64,000 nucleotides of DNA from Phycisphaerae bacterium (GTDB taxonomy: Bacteria; Planctomycetota; Phycisphaerae; UBA1845; CAIVHJ01): contig JAJVHX010000007.1 in NCBI GenBank assembly GCA_022072405.1, forward strand, positions 1 through 64,000, written 5' to 3'. Both the position numbers and the translations under genes were made by a program. A model generated the notes under the pieces. It was not told where the DNA came from, searched no databases, and saw only the letters and a list, made by a program, of their open reading frames with translations. Shown in pieces: positions 3,396 to 62,932 of this stretch. Every line of letters begins with the position of its first letter. The stretch's first letter is position 1.

Positions 3396-4811
3396 TTAAT
3401 GCCCGCGCCTCTTTGAAGAATCGACGATTGTACCTACGGTATCAATGACATACTGTACTTGTTCAGCGCTGACGTTGGGGTTGATGCCGATCATCAAGCC
3501 GCGTTCATGGATGCGATCGGCGACGGGCAGCGGCCAATCGATCCGCCAGTTCGCGGTGCGGGCCACCGGTTGGCGGGCGAGATTGCCGCCGACAATCGGA
3601 CGGGTTTCAATGCGGGCTTGTTCGAGATGCCGGCGAAAGGTGGCGCGGTCGAATGGTGCTTGATCCTTCAGGATCATCCCAAAACCGAAGGCGGAGTGCA
3701 GGTGGTTGGCGGATTCCTGCTGAAAATCAAGGATATCTGAAAATCCGGCCAAGCCGTCGCGTAATTGTTGTCGGACCTGGCGACGCTGCTGAATGTAGGT
3801 GTCGAGTTTGGCGAGTTGAACGAGGCCCAGAGCGGCGTTGATTTCGGTCGGGCGGACGTTGTAACCCTCGGTGACGAAGACCCAGCGGTCATCCATCTGG
3901 CCGGCGAGTCGGGCCAGTTCCGCACGGTCGCTGCGCTCCCGAATCCAGCCGTGGGCTCTGAGCGATTTCAACCGATTCATCAAATCCTCATCCGCACCGC
4001 TTGTGCCCGTCAACGGTTGATCAGCAGGGTTCTGTTGATCGCTGCCGGCAGCCGGCTGCCGGCTGTTGACGCTGACCATGCCGCCTTCGATGGTGGTCAT
4101 GTGGTGCGAAAAGAAAAAGCTGAAGCTGCTGAGTAATCCAAAGGTTCCGACCTTTTGGCCGTTCACCCTGGCGCCATGCGCTTCACAACAATCTTCAACC
4201 ACCCACAAGTTGTGCCGATGAGCAATTTCCATCAGTTCGACTATATGAGCTGGATTACCCAGCAGGTGAACGATGACGATGCCGCGTGTGCGAGGGGTGA
4301 GCGCTTGTCGGACGCGTTGCGGATCGAGGTTGAAGGTGTGCGGATCGACATCGACCAGCACCGGCACGCCGCCCGCCTGGCGGATCGGGTGGATCGTCGT
4401 GGACCAGGTGACGGCGGGAACGATCACTTCATCACCGGGGTTGAACTGATATTGATCATTCGCGCGGGCTGAAGCTTGCGGCTCATGGTTGTTATCTACG
4501 GAAACATCCGGTTGGGCGAGTGCGGCGAGGGCCAGCAGGTTGGCGCTGGATCCGGAATTGACCATCACACTACCGGCAGCACCGAGATAGTGACTCCAGG
4601 CCTGTTCGAAGGTGTGGGTACGAACACCCATCGTAAACTTGCCGCTGAGCAGTACTTCAACTGCGGCAGCGAGTTCATCCGCATCAATGGTGTTGGTCGC
4701 CAGAGGCCAGCTGTTGGAGTTGAGCGGTGATGTGGCGGCGGCGGCGTAGACCCGCACCTGCTGGAGGATCTGCTGCTGCCACTGTTGCACATGCTCATTC
4801 ATGCCCGCCAT
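3396..4811 (-). CDS. DegT-family PLP enzyme with His at the lysine site (ColD/RfbH-like 3-dehydratase)
   Basis: The 471-residue protein is a DegT/DnrJ/EryC1/StrS fold enzyme. The active-site segment reads SFFFSHHMTTIEGG; aligned with the family pattern (SF...K..TT.EGG), His236 occupies the position of the PLP lysine. A histidine there is known in ColD (GDP-4-keto-6-deoxymannose 3-dehydratase) and in E1/RfbH, which remove a hydroxyl instead of transaminating. With gmd and an Fcl/ColC-like gene beside it, I infer a role in GDP-3,6-dideoxyhexose (colitose-like) synthesis. It is about 80 residues longer than ColD. Two low-complexity insertions explain much of this: about residues 100-118, which overlaps a palindromic repeat, and about 255-280. 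The start could instead be the Met three codons in. Confidence 0.8.
   Translation of the reverse strand: MAGMNEHVQQWQQQILQQVRVYAAAATSPLNSNSWPLATNTIDADELAAAVEVLLSGKFTMGVRTHTFEQAWSHYLGAAGSVMVNSGSSANLLALAALAQPDVSVDNNHEPQASARANDQYQFNPGDEVIVPAVTWSTTIHPIRQAGGVPVLVDVDPHTFNLDPQRVRQALTPRTRGIVIVHLLGNPAHIVELMEIAHRHNLWVVEDCCEAHGARVNGQKVGTFGLLSSFSFFFSHHMTTIEGGMVSVNSRQPAAGSDQQNPADQPLTGTSGADEDLMNRLKSLRAHGWIRERSDRAELARLAGQMDDRWVFVTEGYNVRPTEINAALGLVQLAKLDTYIQQRRQVRQQLRDGLAGFSDILDFQQESANHLHSAFGFGMILKDQAPFDRATFRRHLEQARIETRPIVGGNLARQPVARTANWRIDWPLPVADRIHERGLMIGINPNVSAEQVQYVIDTVGTIVDSSKRRGH
4459..4490 (+). repeat. REP-A repeat inside a coding region
   Basis: A full copy of the dispersed palindrome (cgcgcgggctgaagcttgcg) lies within the DegT-family gene. 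On the coding strand it is translated in frame as EPQASARAND, just before the conserved NPGDEVIVPA segment, so it enlarges a surface loop without breaking the frame. Confidence 0.8.
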
Positions 4812-7459: not shown

Positions 7460-7493
7460 TTCGCGCGGGCTCAAGCCCGCGGCTCATTGAATT
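7460..7493 (+). repeat. REP-A repeat, well preserved
   Basis: tCGCGCGGGCTcaAGCCCGCG followed by gctcattgaatt. This copy also keeps outer flanks: ctggtttcaaaat to the left (about 7434) and attatgaaatcacttcc to the right, which are roughly complementary, so the full element may be about 75 bp. Confidence 0.85.
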
Positions 7494-7531: not shown

Positions 7532-7563
7532 TTGCGCGGGCTTAAGCCTGCGGCTCCTTGAAT
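7532..7563 (+). repeat. REP-A repeat, second copy in tandem
   Basis: gttGCGCGGGCTtaAGCCTGCGGCTCcttgaatt, in the same orientation and 72 bases after the previous copy. The arm change GGGCT/AGCCT leaves one wobble pair. Confidence 0.8.
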
Positions 7564-16289: not shown

Positions 16290-16325
16290 TCGCGCAGGCT
16301 AAAGCCTGCGGCTCTTTGATTTTTG
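16290..16325 (+). repeat. REP-A repeat, well preserved
   Basis: tCGCGCAGGCTaaAGCCTGCGGCTCTTTG with compensatory arms CAGGCT/AGCCTG. The right flank atttttgaaaccacttcc and left flank cgtttcataattgaatt are roughly complementary, giving an outer inverted repeat. Confidence 0.85.
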
Positions 16326-17372: not shown

Positions 17373-17411
17373 TCGCGCCGGCTGAAGCCGGCGGCTCTTT
17401 GAATTTTTGAA
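17373..17411 (+). repeat. REP-A repeat with compensatory arm change
   Basis: tCGCGCCGGCTgaAGCCGGCGGCTCTTTGaatttttgaaacc. The arms are CCGGCT/AGCCGG, again changed on both sides. It separates the sigma factor from the next gene. Confidence 0.85.
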
Positions 17412-21754: not shown

Positions 21755-24700
21755 TTAGTCAACTGCGGGGCGGAGCGGGCCGGCCAGAGTGAGCGAATCC
21801 AAGCCGAGCAGCTGTTCAATATCCTGCCGCAGCCGGGGAGAGGGCAGCACCCGTTCGCCCGGACCGCAGCGCACCCAGGCCCATTGCTGATCGCGGGTCA
21901 GAATCTGCAGCAGCACGGGAATTTCACCCGGATGCTGGCGGAGTATTGTCTCCAGTTGGGGGAGAATGTCCGGTGGGTGCTGGTCGCTGGAGAGGCGGAT
22001 GTGTACCTCCTGCGTCAGGCGATGTTCGACTTCTTCCAGGGGGATGATATCGGCGGTGCGGAGGGCGGGAATCTCGCGGCGGCGGTCCACCAGACCTTTG
22101 AAAAAAAGCACACGGTCCAGCAGCAGCAGGGGGCGGAAGCGTTCCAGATCGGCGGGGAAGAGAATGACTTCGACCGATCCTGTGGTGTCTTCGACGGTGG
22201 CGATGCCCATCCGGGCACCGGCGTTCCGGCCGCTCTTGGTAACGACGGTGCGCAGTTTGGTGAGCAATCCGCCGAGCACCACCTCCGTCCCGTCGGTAAA
22301 AGTGGCCAGCCCCCGGGTGGTGGCGGAAGCGTAGCGGCGAATCAGCGCCTCGTGCTGGGCGAGCGGGTGGTTGGTGATGTAAAAGCCCAGCACCTCTTTT
22401 TCGTAAGCGAGCAGTTCCGCTTCGCTCCATTGCTGGTTGGCGGGAATGGCGGGGTAGTGTACCGGTGCGGCGGGGGATTCCGGTCCGGCGAAGAAATCCA
22501 TCAGTGACATCTGGCCGCTGAGGCGGTCGCGCTGGCGATTCTGCCCCGCTTCGTAGGCACTCTCAATCACGGTCATGAGTGCTTTGCGCATCGCCCCGGT
22601 GGAATCGAAGGCACCGGCTTTGATCAGGGCTTCGATGGCTCCGCGATGCACAGCCGACAGATCAACCCGCTCACAGAATTCGTACAGGTTTTTGAACTCC
22701 CCGTCTTCGGTTCGGGCGTGAATGATGGCCTGGACGGCTTTTTCGCCCAGTCCCTTGATGGCGCCCAGGCCGAAGCGCAGATACCCGGACAGGGCATCGA
22801 AGGGGTGCTTATCGGCCGACGGATCGGCATCGCGCTGGCTGAAGCCCGCGGCTCTTGGAGAAGCGATCGGATAGACCGGGGTGAAGTCGTAGCCGGAGGA
22901 GTTGATATCGGGCGGTTTGACGACGATCTGCATGCGGCGGCACTCTTCGATATGTTCGATCACCTTGTCGGTGTTACCCATTTCAAAGGTGAGGACGGCA
23001 GCCATGAACTCCAGCGGGTGGTAACACTTCATGTAGGCGGTCTGGAAGGCGATGAGGGCGTAGCCGGTGGAATGGGCCTTGTTAAAGGCGTAGCCGCCGA
23101 AGCGGAGGATGTTCTCAAATATTTCATTGGTGACGGCGTCGGCGAGGCCGTTGGCCCGGCAACCGGCGAGAAAATCTTCGCGCATGGCGGCGATCATGGC
23201 GGTGTTTTTCTTGCTGATGGCCTTGGCGAGGCGGAAGGCTTTTTTCAGTTCGATATTGCCGAGGCGATTGACCAGCCGCGAAACCTGCTCCTGATAAACC
23301 ATGATGCCGTAGGTTTCCGCGAGTACTTCAGTCATCAGCGGGTGGGGCGTGGTCCAGGCTTCACCATGTTTGCGCGAGACGTAGGCATCGATGTTGACCA
23401 TCGGCCCGGGGCGGTACAGGGCGTTGGCGGCGATCAGATCGTGAATGCGATTGGGTTTCATCTTGCGCAGCACGTCGCGCATGCCGTCTGATTCAAACTG
23501 AAAGATGCCCCGGGTATCCCCCTCGGCGAAGACGCGATAGACGCTCTGATCGTCGAGGTCCAGTTGATCCAGGTTGATGGTCCGGCCGATTTTTTTCTCG
23601 GCGAGTTGGCGGGCCCGTTCCAGCGTGGTGAGGGTGCGCAGGCCGAGAAAATCCATTTTTAACAAGCCGACCTTTTCCACGGTCGGGCCGTCATACTGGG
23701 TAACAATCTGTTCCAGGCCTCCACTCCCGGCGGCGGGTGGTTTGTAGAGCGGCAGGAAATTTTCGAGCGGTTGATCGGCGATGACCACACCGGCCGCGTG
23801 GACTCCGGCGTGGCGGGCCAGCCCTTCGATGCGTTTGCTGATATCGATTACTTTTCTGACCAGCGGGTCGGACTGGTAGAGCTTGGCCAGTTCCGGCTCG
23901 GATTCGAGGGCTTTGTCGATGGTCATGTGCAGTTCGGCGGGGATCAGCTCGGTGAGCTTGGTGGCCCGCTCGAACTCGATGCCCAGCACGCGGGCGACGT
24001 CTTTGACGGCGGCGCGGGCTTTGAGCGTGCCGAAGGTGATGATCTGGGCGACATGGCCATATTTCTGCCGCACGTAATCGAGCACCTGCTGGCGACCTTC
24101 CTGGCAGAGGTCGATGTCGATGTCGGGCATTTCGTCGCGGTCGGGGTCCATGAAGCGTTCGAAGTAGAGTTCATAGCGCAAGGGGTCGGGGGCGGAGAGG
24201 CCAAGGCAGTAGCCGACCACCGAACTGCAGGCCGAACCGCGCGCTCCGCAGGGAATCCCCTGCCGCCGGGCATATTCAACGAAATCCCAGACGATCAGAA
24301 AATAGCTGGAAAAACCCTTGCCGGCGATCACGCTGAGTTCATAGTCGATCCGCTCACGGATGGCGGGGATCCGTTCACCATAGCGCTGGAGCGCCCCGGC
24401 ATAGACCAGCTCGCGCAGGTAATCGTTATCGCTTTTTTTCTGCGGCGGATGATAGACCGGGGCGTAACGTTTGCCGAAGGATAGTTCGAGGTTGCAGAGA
24501 TCGGCGACATGCAGAGTGTTGGAGAGCAGTTCCGGGTGGTCGGGGAACAGCGTCGCCATTTCCGCGCCGGTTTTGAGATAAAATTCCTCGCTGGGAAACT
24601 TGAAGCGGTCGGTTTCGTTGACCAGGCTGCCGGTGGAAATACAGCAGAGCACGTCGTGGGCTTCGGCATCGTCGCGGTGGAGATAATGGACGTCGTTCGT

Positions 24701-25348
24701 GGCGATGGCGGCGACGCCGAGGCGCCGGGCCATATCGAGCAGGGCGGGGTTGAGCTGGCGTTGTTCAGGAATGCCGTGATCCTGCAGCTCGATGAAGAAG
24801 CGATCCGGCCCGAAAATTTCGAGATAACTCCTGGCGACATCTTCCGCCATTTTCTGATCGCGATGCAGGAGCAGTTGCGGCAACTCGGCTCCAAGACAGG
24901 TGGAGGTACAGATCAGCCCCTCACTGAATTCACGCAACGCTTCCTTGTCAATCCGGGGTTTGTAGTAAAAACCTTCGCGATAACCGAGAGTAGCCAGCTT
25001 GAGCAGATTGTGATAGCCGGTAAGGTTCTGAGCCAGCAGCAGCAGGTGGTAACTGGTATCACCGCCGATGCACTTGGCTTCTTTGTCGCTGCGGTGGCGC
25101 GGAGCCAGGTAGGCTTCCATGCCGACCAGCGGTTTGATACCGGCTTTGCGGGCGGCAGTGAAAAACTCTATGGCTCCGAACATGTTGCCATGGTCGCTGA
25201 TGGCTACGGCGGGCATGTGCAGCTCTTGCAGCCGGGCCATGAGGCGGTGAATTTCAGTCGCCCCATCGAGCAGGCTGTAATGGGTGTGCAGATGGAGGTG
25301 AACAAATGGGGGTGCGGCTGCAGAAACTGACGGCGGTGGTATGACCAT
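21755..25348 (-). CDS. dnaE: DNA polymerase III alpha subunit
   Basis: DnaE is the replicative polymerase. The 1197-residue protein begins with a PHP domain (HLHLHTHYSLLDG; ISDHGNMFGA). The polymerase active-site aspartates are in PDIDIDLCQEG (about 409-419). Motifs such as DFLGLRTLTT, RPGPMVNID and FNKAHSTGYALIAFQ follow, then the helix-hairpin-helix region (LRFGLGAIKGLGEKA) and an OB fold near 1000-1080. Length matches the family. A dispersed palindromic repeat is present in frame at about residues 830-840 (ASPRAAGFSQRDAD), in the variable stretch before the helix-hairpin-helix region. It is monocistronic. Confidence 0.97.
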   Translation of the reverse strand: MVIPPPSVSAAAPPFVHLHLHTHYSLLDGATEIHRLMARLQELHMPAVAISDHGNMFGAIEFFTAARKAGIKPLVGMEAYLAPRHRSDKEAKCIGGDTSYHLLLLAQNLTGYHNLLKLATLGYREGFYYKPRIDKEALREFSEGLICTSTCLGAELPQLLLHRDQKMAEDVARSYLEIFGPDRFFIELQDHGIPEQRQLNPALLDMARRLGVAAIATNDVHYLHRDDAEAHDVLCCISTGSLVNETDRFKFPSEEFYLKTGAEMATLFPDHPELLSNTLHVADLCNLELSFGKRYAPVYHPPQKKSDNDYLRELVYAGALQRYGERIPAIRERIDYELSVIAGKGFSSYFLIVWDFVEYARRQGIPCGARGSACSSVVGYCLGLSAPDPLRYELYFERFMDPDRDEMPDIDIDLCQEGRQQVLDYVRQKYGHVAQIITFGTLKARAAVKDVARVLGIEFERATKLTELIPAELHMTIDKALESEPELAKLYQSDPLVRKVIDISKRIEGLARHAGVHAAGVVIADQPLENFLPLYKPPAAGSGGLEQIVTQYDGPTVEKVGLLKMDFLGLRTLTTLERARQLAEKKIGRTINLDQLDLDDQSVYRVFAEGDTRGIFQFESDGMRDVLRKMKPNRIHDLIAANALYRPGPMVNIDAYVSRKHGEAWTTPHPLMTEVLAETYGIMVYQEQVSRLVNRLGNIELKKAFRLAKAISKKNTAMIAAMREDFLAGCRANGLADAVTNEIFENILRFGGYAFNKAHSTGYALIAFQTAYMKCYHPLEFMAAVLTFEMGNTDKVIEHIEECRRMQIVVKPPDINSSGYDFTPVYPIASPRAAGFSQRDADPSADKHPFDALSGYLRFGLGAIKGLGEKAVQAIIHARTEDGEFKNLYEFCERVDLSAVHRGAIEALIKAGAFDSTGAMRKALMTVIESAYEAGQNRQRDRLSGQMSLMDFFAGPESPAAPVHYPAIPANQQWSEAELLAYEKEVLGFYITNHPLAQHEALIRRYASATTRGLATFTDGTEVVLGGLLTKLRTVVTKSGRNAGARMGIATVEDTTGSVEVILFPADLERFRPLLLLDRVLFFKGLVDRRREIPALRTADIIPLEEVEHRLTQEVHIRLSSDQHPPDILPQLETILRQHPGEIPVLLQILTRDQQWAWVRCGPGERVLPSPRLRQDIEQLLGLDSLTLAGPLRPAVD
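22829..22860 (+). repeat. REP-A repeat inside dnaE
   Basis: tCGCGCTGGCTgaAGCCCGCGGCTCTTgg matches the dispersed palindrome and lies within dnaE. It is translated on the minus strand as SPRAAGFSQRDA and preserves the frame. DnaE proteins normally have a short, variable connection at this point. Confidence 0.85.
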
Positions 25349-31856: not shown

Positions 31857-31890
31857 CTCGTGCAGGCTGAAGCCTGCGGCTCTTTGAATT
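31857..31890 (+). repeat. REP-A repeat
   Basis: tCGTGCAGGCTgaAGCCTGCGGCTCTTTGaatt, arms CAGGCT/AGCCTG. It lies in the divergent gap between yggS and trmB, 38 bases before the trmB start. Confidence 0.85.
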
Positions 31891-38549: not shown

Positions 38550-38581
38550 TTCGCGCAGGCTCAAGCCTGCGGCTCGTTGAG
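38550..38581 (+). repeat. REP-A repeat, well preserved
   Basis: tCGCGCAGGCTcaAGCCTGCGGCTCgttga, arms CAGGCT/AGCCTG, in the hutU-tssM gap. Confidence 0.85.
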
Positions 38582-43105: not shown

Positions 43106-43134
43106 CCGCGCGGGCTGAAGCCTGCGACTCGTTA
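43106..43134 (+). repeat. REP-A repeat between tssM and tagF
   Basis: ccGCGCGGGCTgaAGCCTGCGaCTCgtta. It lies in the 117-base gap of a probable tssM-tagF operon. Confidence 0.8.
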
Positions 43135-62899: not shown

Positions 62900-62932
62900 G
62901 TCCGCGCGAGCTGAAGCTCGCGGCTCGGAGTT
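62900..62932 (+). repeat. REP-A repeat with compensatory arm change
   Basis: tcCGCGCGAGCTgaAGCTCGCGGCTCgga. Arms GAGCT/AGCTC are changed on both sides. It lies in the divergent gap between surE and nnrE. Confidence 0.85.

Follow-up and report, generated by a model that had tools for sequence, protein, structure and literature searches.

The window, that is, the whole stretch of 64,000 nucleotides that was analyzed, carries on its minus strand a gene for an enzyme of the DegT/DnrJ/EryC1/StrS family, in which a preliminary description of the DNA had placed an in-frame copy of a short palindromic repeat, REP-A. This placement is borne out, as the core of the repeat is read as EPQASARA at codons 110-117 of 471. 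The features of the locus are as follows.

3396..4811, minus strand: gene of a ColD/RfbH/E1-type DegT/DnrJ/EryC1/StrS family enzyme, 471 amino acids (Pfam, NCBIfam, PDB and fold matches)
4463..4484, minus strand: REP core GAGCCGCAAGCTTCAGCCCGCG, 22 bases, in the enzyme gene, read as EPQASARA (residues 110-117)
approx. 4458..4505, minus strand: insertion 1, about 16 codons (residues 103-118), containing the REP; placed by homolog spacing, ends uncertain by a few codons
approx. 3996..4064, minus strand: insertion 2, about 23 codons (23-24; residues 250-272), private, not a REP-A copy; placed by homolog spacing
4005..4072, minus strand: structured DNA within or overlapping insertion 2 (DNA fold)

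The gene at 3396-4811 is a single open frame whose product matches Pfam PF01041 with an E-value of 1.2e-86. The top NCBIfam model is RfbH, with a score below the model's cut-off, and the best PDB matches, by sequence as well as by predicted fold (TMt 0.92-0.93), are the E1 dehydrase (CDP-4-keto-6-deoxyglucose 3-dehydrase) and ColD (GDP-4-keto-6-deoxymannose 3-dehydratase). The enzyme has in common with both a histidine at the position of the catalytic, PLP-binding lysine, within the motif SHHMTTIEGG in which H236 and H237 are invariant, and differs from them in possessing two extra loops of ~16 and ~23 residues. From its sequence and modeled fold, it would appear to be closest to the PMP-dependent NDP-4-keto-6-deoxyhexose 3-dehydratase type. 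All 25 columns that are invariant among 38 homologs are retained. Since the frame is open and every invariant residue is present, a pseudogene can be ruled out, and a mis-set start codon is similarly ruled out because the REP, at codon 110, is preceded as well as followed by conserved sequence. The earlier view that the frame is preserved and the enzyme otherwise intact is thus upheld, and the protein is presumably made and active.

For comparison, a set of 81 homologs was assembled. A single-sequence protein query against genome contigs gave no matches; an alignment query gave 80, to which the ortholog from a genome of the same family, G002, was added. The spacing between L98 and G126 is 27 residues in the host enzyme and 7-14 in all 81 homologs, none of which carries the REP-encoded residues. 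The same residues in orthologs, the result that had been named as refuting the idea, are thus absent from this set, and by this comparison insertion 1 is a private segment of some 15-16 codons. As this is longer than the conserved repeat of ~29 nt, neighboring non-repeat bases must belong to the insertion as well. The interval 4459-4490, corresponding to codons 108-118, had been credited with supplying about ten residues, EPQASARAND, of which EPQASARA does come from the core, although the full insertion is larger. Nor does the segment directly precede NPGDEV, as had been thought: five residues, QYQFN, separate its terminal AND from PGDEV. Where the G002 ortholog (57-61% identical) runs ...LASPIWKTGLRPGDEV, the host enzyme runs ...LAQPDVSVDNNHEPQASARANDQYQFNPGDEV. 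The exact ends of insertion 1 are uncertain because the nearest ortholog, at this level of identity, belongs to another genus, and a two-step origin is possible.

In the AlphaFold model of the enzyme, which has an overall pLDDT of 90, the weak internal stretches are residues 101-120 and 251-270. The pLDDT falls to 54-57 across insertion 1 and to 52-54 across insertion 2. Insertion 1 forms a low-confidence loop in a confident fold, bounded by a helix on one side and by a strand starting at GDEV on the other. At the level of DNA, the 7-bp stem of the copy at 4463-4484 contains two A·C mismatches, and its fold is no better than that of shuffled sequences (z +0.98, compared with -1.95 for an intergenic copy). 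The repeat that was described as complete is therefore present, but it is not pristine. Its decayed stem argues against a hairpin function, and the in-gene copy looks like a decayed element, a tolerated fossil rather than a working hairpin.

The conserved short repeat to which this copy belongs is ~29 nt long, with the consensus CAAnGAGCCGCRGGCTTYAGCCYGCGCGA. At up to 3 mismatches, there are 101 copies in the genome (G000; 3.57 Mb, 28 contigs), compared with 0 for a backward-pattern control. In the window, GAGCCGCAAGCTTCAGCCCGCG occurs 10 times at up to 3 mismatches, with 0 expected from shuffles; a first-guessed core, AGCGAGCCCGCCC, had been dropped, its matches being at chance level. Besides the copy described above, the pattern matches in the window, and the second host gene, are the following.

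7464..7485, minus strand: intergenic REP copy
7535..7556, minus strand: intergenic REP copy
16293..16314, minus strand: intergenic REP copy
17376..17397, minus strand: intergenic REP copy
21755..25240, minus strand: DnaE (DNA polymerase III alpha), 1161 amino acids, second host in the window (Pfam DNA_pol3_alpha, finger, PHP, HHH_6)
22833..22854, minus strand: REP copy in DnaE, giving RAAGFSQRD in the other forward frame
31861..31882, minus strand: intergenic REP copy
38554..38575, minus strand: intergenic REP copy
43109..43130, minus strand: intergenic REP copy
62905..62926, minus strand: intergenic REP copy, with a called gene on either side

About one third of the genome, 1.19 Mb comprising contig C7, most of C1, C2, and most of C3, was scanned for gene context. 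It contains 105 copies of GAGCCGCNGGCTTNAGCCNGCGC at up to 3 mismatches, whereas the reversed pattern has 0 matches at this threshold and 1 at 4 mismatches. The 7-bp stem is fully paired in 64 of these copies, and a test of whether stems of in-gene copies are weaker overall gave no significant difference (p 0.11). Two forms can be distinguished: a long form of 80-odd bases with terminal inverted repeats GTGGTTTCAAAAT...ATTTTGAAACC, none of whose 28 copies lies in a gene, and a short form, for which 30 of 77 copies do (Fisher p 1.6e-5). The long form is MITE-like, often ends in CTAG, and was seen at its 28 places in C1, C2, C3 and C7 (for example C2:5655 and C1:160874), all intergenic. Within the host's own order the REP is distributed patchily, being present in 23 of 114 genomes.

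The copy in the DegT-family gene is no isolated oddity, as 30 copies, the second in-window one in DnaE included, are read through within genes in this third of the genome. Genes were called by a home-made codon-usage method, and 17 of the 20 other hosts scanned carry Pfam domains, among them those of DnaE, ArgS, an acyl-CoA synthetase, an ArgC-like protein, QueC, ValS, LigA, a DAP/Arg decarboxylase and a CofH-like radical SAM enzyme. Per Mb, there are 31 REPs within genes and 319 outside them, a roughly tenfold difference that would follow if genic insertions were mostly lost. Of the in-gene copies, 29 are read in three stop-free frames (13 as ARAEARG-type peptides from the opposite strand, 9 as xAAGFSPR and 7 as EPRASAR) and 1 in a fourth; no copy is read in the frame in which a stop is always present. 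One of the 30, the match at C7:11993 with 3 mismatches, is probably due to chance.

Comparison with relatives shows that the REP segment is absent from their ArgS, ArgC, QueC and LigA orthologs, among others; in ArgS the insertion appears as a clean gap of 15-16 residues, and ArgC is longer by 14. In the G002 orthologs of CofH and DnaE, on the other hand, REP-derived residues (CofH) or REP-like residues (DnaE) are found at the same site as in G000. Such an insertion can therefore outlast a genus, or else one site has been hit twice.

Insertion 2 of the DegT-family enzyme is of a different kind. The spacing from M245 to R285 is 39 residues, compared with 15-16 in all 81 homologs. The DNA at 4005-4072 has an outer stem, GTCAAC../..GTTGAC, inside which lie the perfectly palindromic 20-nt sequence GCCGGCAGCCGGCTGCCGGC and another hairpin; its fold of -20.5 kcal/mol (z -4.15) was equaled by 0 of 200 shuffles. 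The insertion 2 DNA (3996-4072) contains a strongly folding, multi-branch palindrome that occurs in single copy in the 1.19 Mb, where exact matching of the 20-nt palindrome found only itself and nothing beyond 20 bases. The lack of a second copy there gives no reason to class it as a repeat.

Together, these observations make it probable that a short-form REP was inserted in frame in the ColD-type gene, that its stem has since decayed, and that its peptide persists as a loop that is neutral, or nearly so. In this mechanism, a short-form REP of a family that flanks Y1 (HUH) transposases would have entered the gene together with a few neighboring bases, ~45-48 nt in total, and would have survived since its length was a multiple of three, the frame in which it landed was free of stops, and the site was a loop. 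More generally, the Y1 transposase system would spread the short REP, and most insertions into genes would be lost, leaving those that keep the frame, lack stops and hit loops. The hairpin would decay afterwards as DNA, while the peptide would be carried along, presumably without function. Mobilization of the REPs by the Y1 transposase is suggested by the proximity of the two.

It could instead be supposed that the REP-derived loop was recruited to serve the enzyme, for instance by gating the substrate, binding a partner or making an oligomer contact. That some intragenic REPs occupy the same site across genera, as in CofH and DnaE of G000 and G002, does indicate that tolerated insertions can last. 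However, insertion 1 is private and forms a low-confidence loop, and REP peptides in unrelated enzymes merely follow the frame of the DNA, so that recruitment is an unlikely explanation. An even smaller chance must be given to the proposal that the REP acts as nucleic acid, that is, as an mRNA or DNA hairpin or as a pausing or stability signal, with its coding being incidental. REPs elsewhere do affect transcripts (PMC3733652), and intergenic copies in G000 still pair, yet this is at odds with the broken stem and poor fold of the in-gene copy. Finally, it is most improbable that the loop lengthened in the normal course of divergence, through replication slippage or recombination, and came to resemble a REP by chance or convergence, for although the second private insertion shows that this gene tolerates loop growth without a REP-A copy, the 22-mer belongs to a 101-copy family with 0 copies expected by chance, and REP and insertion coincide in many other genes.

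In-frame insertion of a short-form REP, the favored explanation for the DegT-family enzyme, has a larger counterpart in the same genome. The gene for ValS (C3:191447-195667, L069:11447-15667, minus strand), the only one in the genome above the valS cut-off, encodes 1406 residues and contains at residues 534-595 an in-frame Y1_Tnp domain, with a Pfam E-value of 1.1e-4 that lies just under the curated cut-off. The HUH (DHVH) and tyrosine (EYVENQ) motifs of this IS200-like/RAYT domain are intact, and ValS itself retains its HLGH and MSKSK motifs. REPs are found upstream of the embedded domain at codons 438 and 452, and inverted downstream at codon 664; four further REPs form two inverted pairs, and all seven are in frame. 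The ValS orthologs of G001 and G002 lack the Y1 domain. Similarly, LeuS of G000 (C17, L111:4349-7816, minus strand) contains an in-frame Y1 domain between two diverged REPs. Free-standing Y1 genes also adjoin REPs, in G001 (C262) and G002 (C168). The Y1 proteins of the REP-A group have a YVxxQ-type motif, which is not an exact fit to class 3, so that an assignment to that class is at most tentative.

Related genomes show the same arrangement in ValS, GcvP, IleS, AlaS and PurH (loci L112-L120 and L123). In PurH, an in-frame Y1 domain flanked by the same REP is present in G008, G012 and G015, after NNYLDADAAL... and before FIKHTN, and in G014 a different Y1 is found at this very site, which implies that permissive sites are reused. 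AlaS contains one such domain in G013 and two in a single gene in G014; IleS contains one in G004 and in G014, and ValS and GcvP of G004 are also hosts. Overall, open frames of at least 800 codons with a Y1 match occur in 8 of 21 genomes, and all of these frames are free of stops.

The preliminary description had named the Rickettsia palindromic elements as the known case of palindromic repeats entering genes in frame. Those of the RPE-1 type are longer, about 100-150 bp, and confined to Rickettsiales, and we know of no transposase for these elements, whereas in G000 the REPs also accompany a Y1 transposase. Rickettsial elements, which also occur in Wolbachia, resemble the present REPs in being palindromic repeats in frame at permissive sites of functional or conserved genes (PMC3733652). 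They are not the only precedent, as in-frame intragenic REPs have been described in many bacteria, including Opitutus terrae and R. conorii, with hosts such as the DNA ligase of O. terrae and uvrA, DnaE and tRNA synthetases of the listed species (Di Nocera et al. 2013, PMC3733652). These intragenic REPs, and not the rickettsial elements, are the closer relatives of the G000 case. Like those of the GTAG and CGTC superfamilies (PMC3733652), the REPs of G000 belong with high-copy palindromes of 20-40 nt that occur as singles or inverted dimers, are mostly intergenic but sometimes in frame in genes, and are linked to Y1 proteins. However, neither tag is conserved in the G000 repeat, in which CAAnGAGCC...GCGCGA is conserved, with CAAnGAGC as the 5' part. 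Two further differences are that the insertions in G000 are shown against orthologs, and that the transposase gene itself lies in frame inside its hosts.

The embedded domains themselves resemble the TnpA-REP/RAYT (Y1 HUH) transposases and REPtrons (class scheme in PMC6006769) in combining a Y1_Tnp domain, with HUH and catalytic tyrosine, and REPs flanking it in opposite orientations; they differ in being read in the same frame inside ValS, LeuS, PurH and other enzymes. Corneloup et al. (2018; PMC6006769) came across Y1 proteins of unexpected length and left them aside, taking them for fusions or errors of annotation. A search of the open-licence literature gave no description of a Y1 transposase embedded in frame in an essential enzyme. 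While intragenic REPs were already known, what appears to be new is that a REP-flanked Y1 transposase is read in frame within LeuS and within the one clear ValS of the genome.

By sequence, REPs and whole transposases would thus appear to reside within essential genes without breaking them. It is somewhat more plausible than the contrary that REPs and Y1 transposases in this order have a coding mode. In this mode, the elements would enter permissive loops without loss of frame, the hosts being essential single-copy enzymes (ValS, LeuS, IleS, AlaS, PurH and GcvP, in addition to many genes with REPs alone), and the transposase would be synthesized as an internal domain of a host enzyme whose gene cannot be lost. 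Palindromic insertions that keep the reading frame have mostly been considered a peculiarity of rickettsiae, with scattered REP cases besides, yet one genome seems to carry several dozen of them, in core genes that include DnaE, LigA, ArgS and ValS, and its only clear ValS harbors in frame the responsible transposase or else a relative. Such genomes would offer a natural large-scale experiment on the sites at which proteins tolerate insertion, a way for mobile DNA to contribute new segments to proteins, and the testable idea of a mobile element sheltering inside essential genes. A further warning is that long or odd tRNA synthetases in them should not be put down to annotation errors.

Other repeats may be read in a similar manner. 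The embedded Y1 domains at four loci of other genomes (L112, L114, L115 and L120) are flanked by further repeat-derived peptides, PLPHGRGSE, HPSRDREGA, GTGVSPVQAG and HRRDADAP, which probably represent in-frame readings of different REP families.
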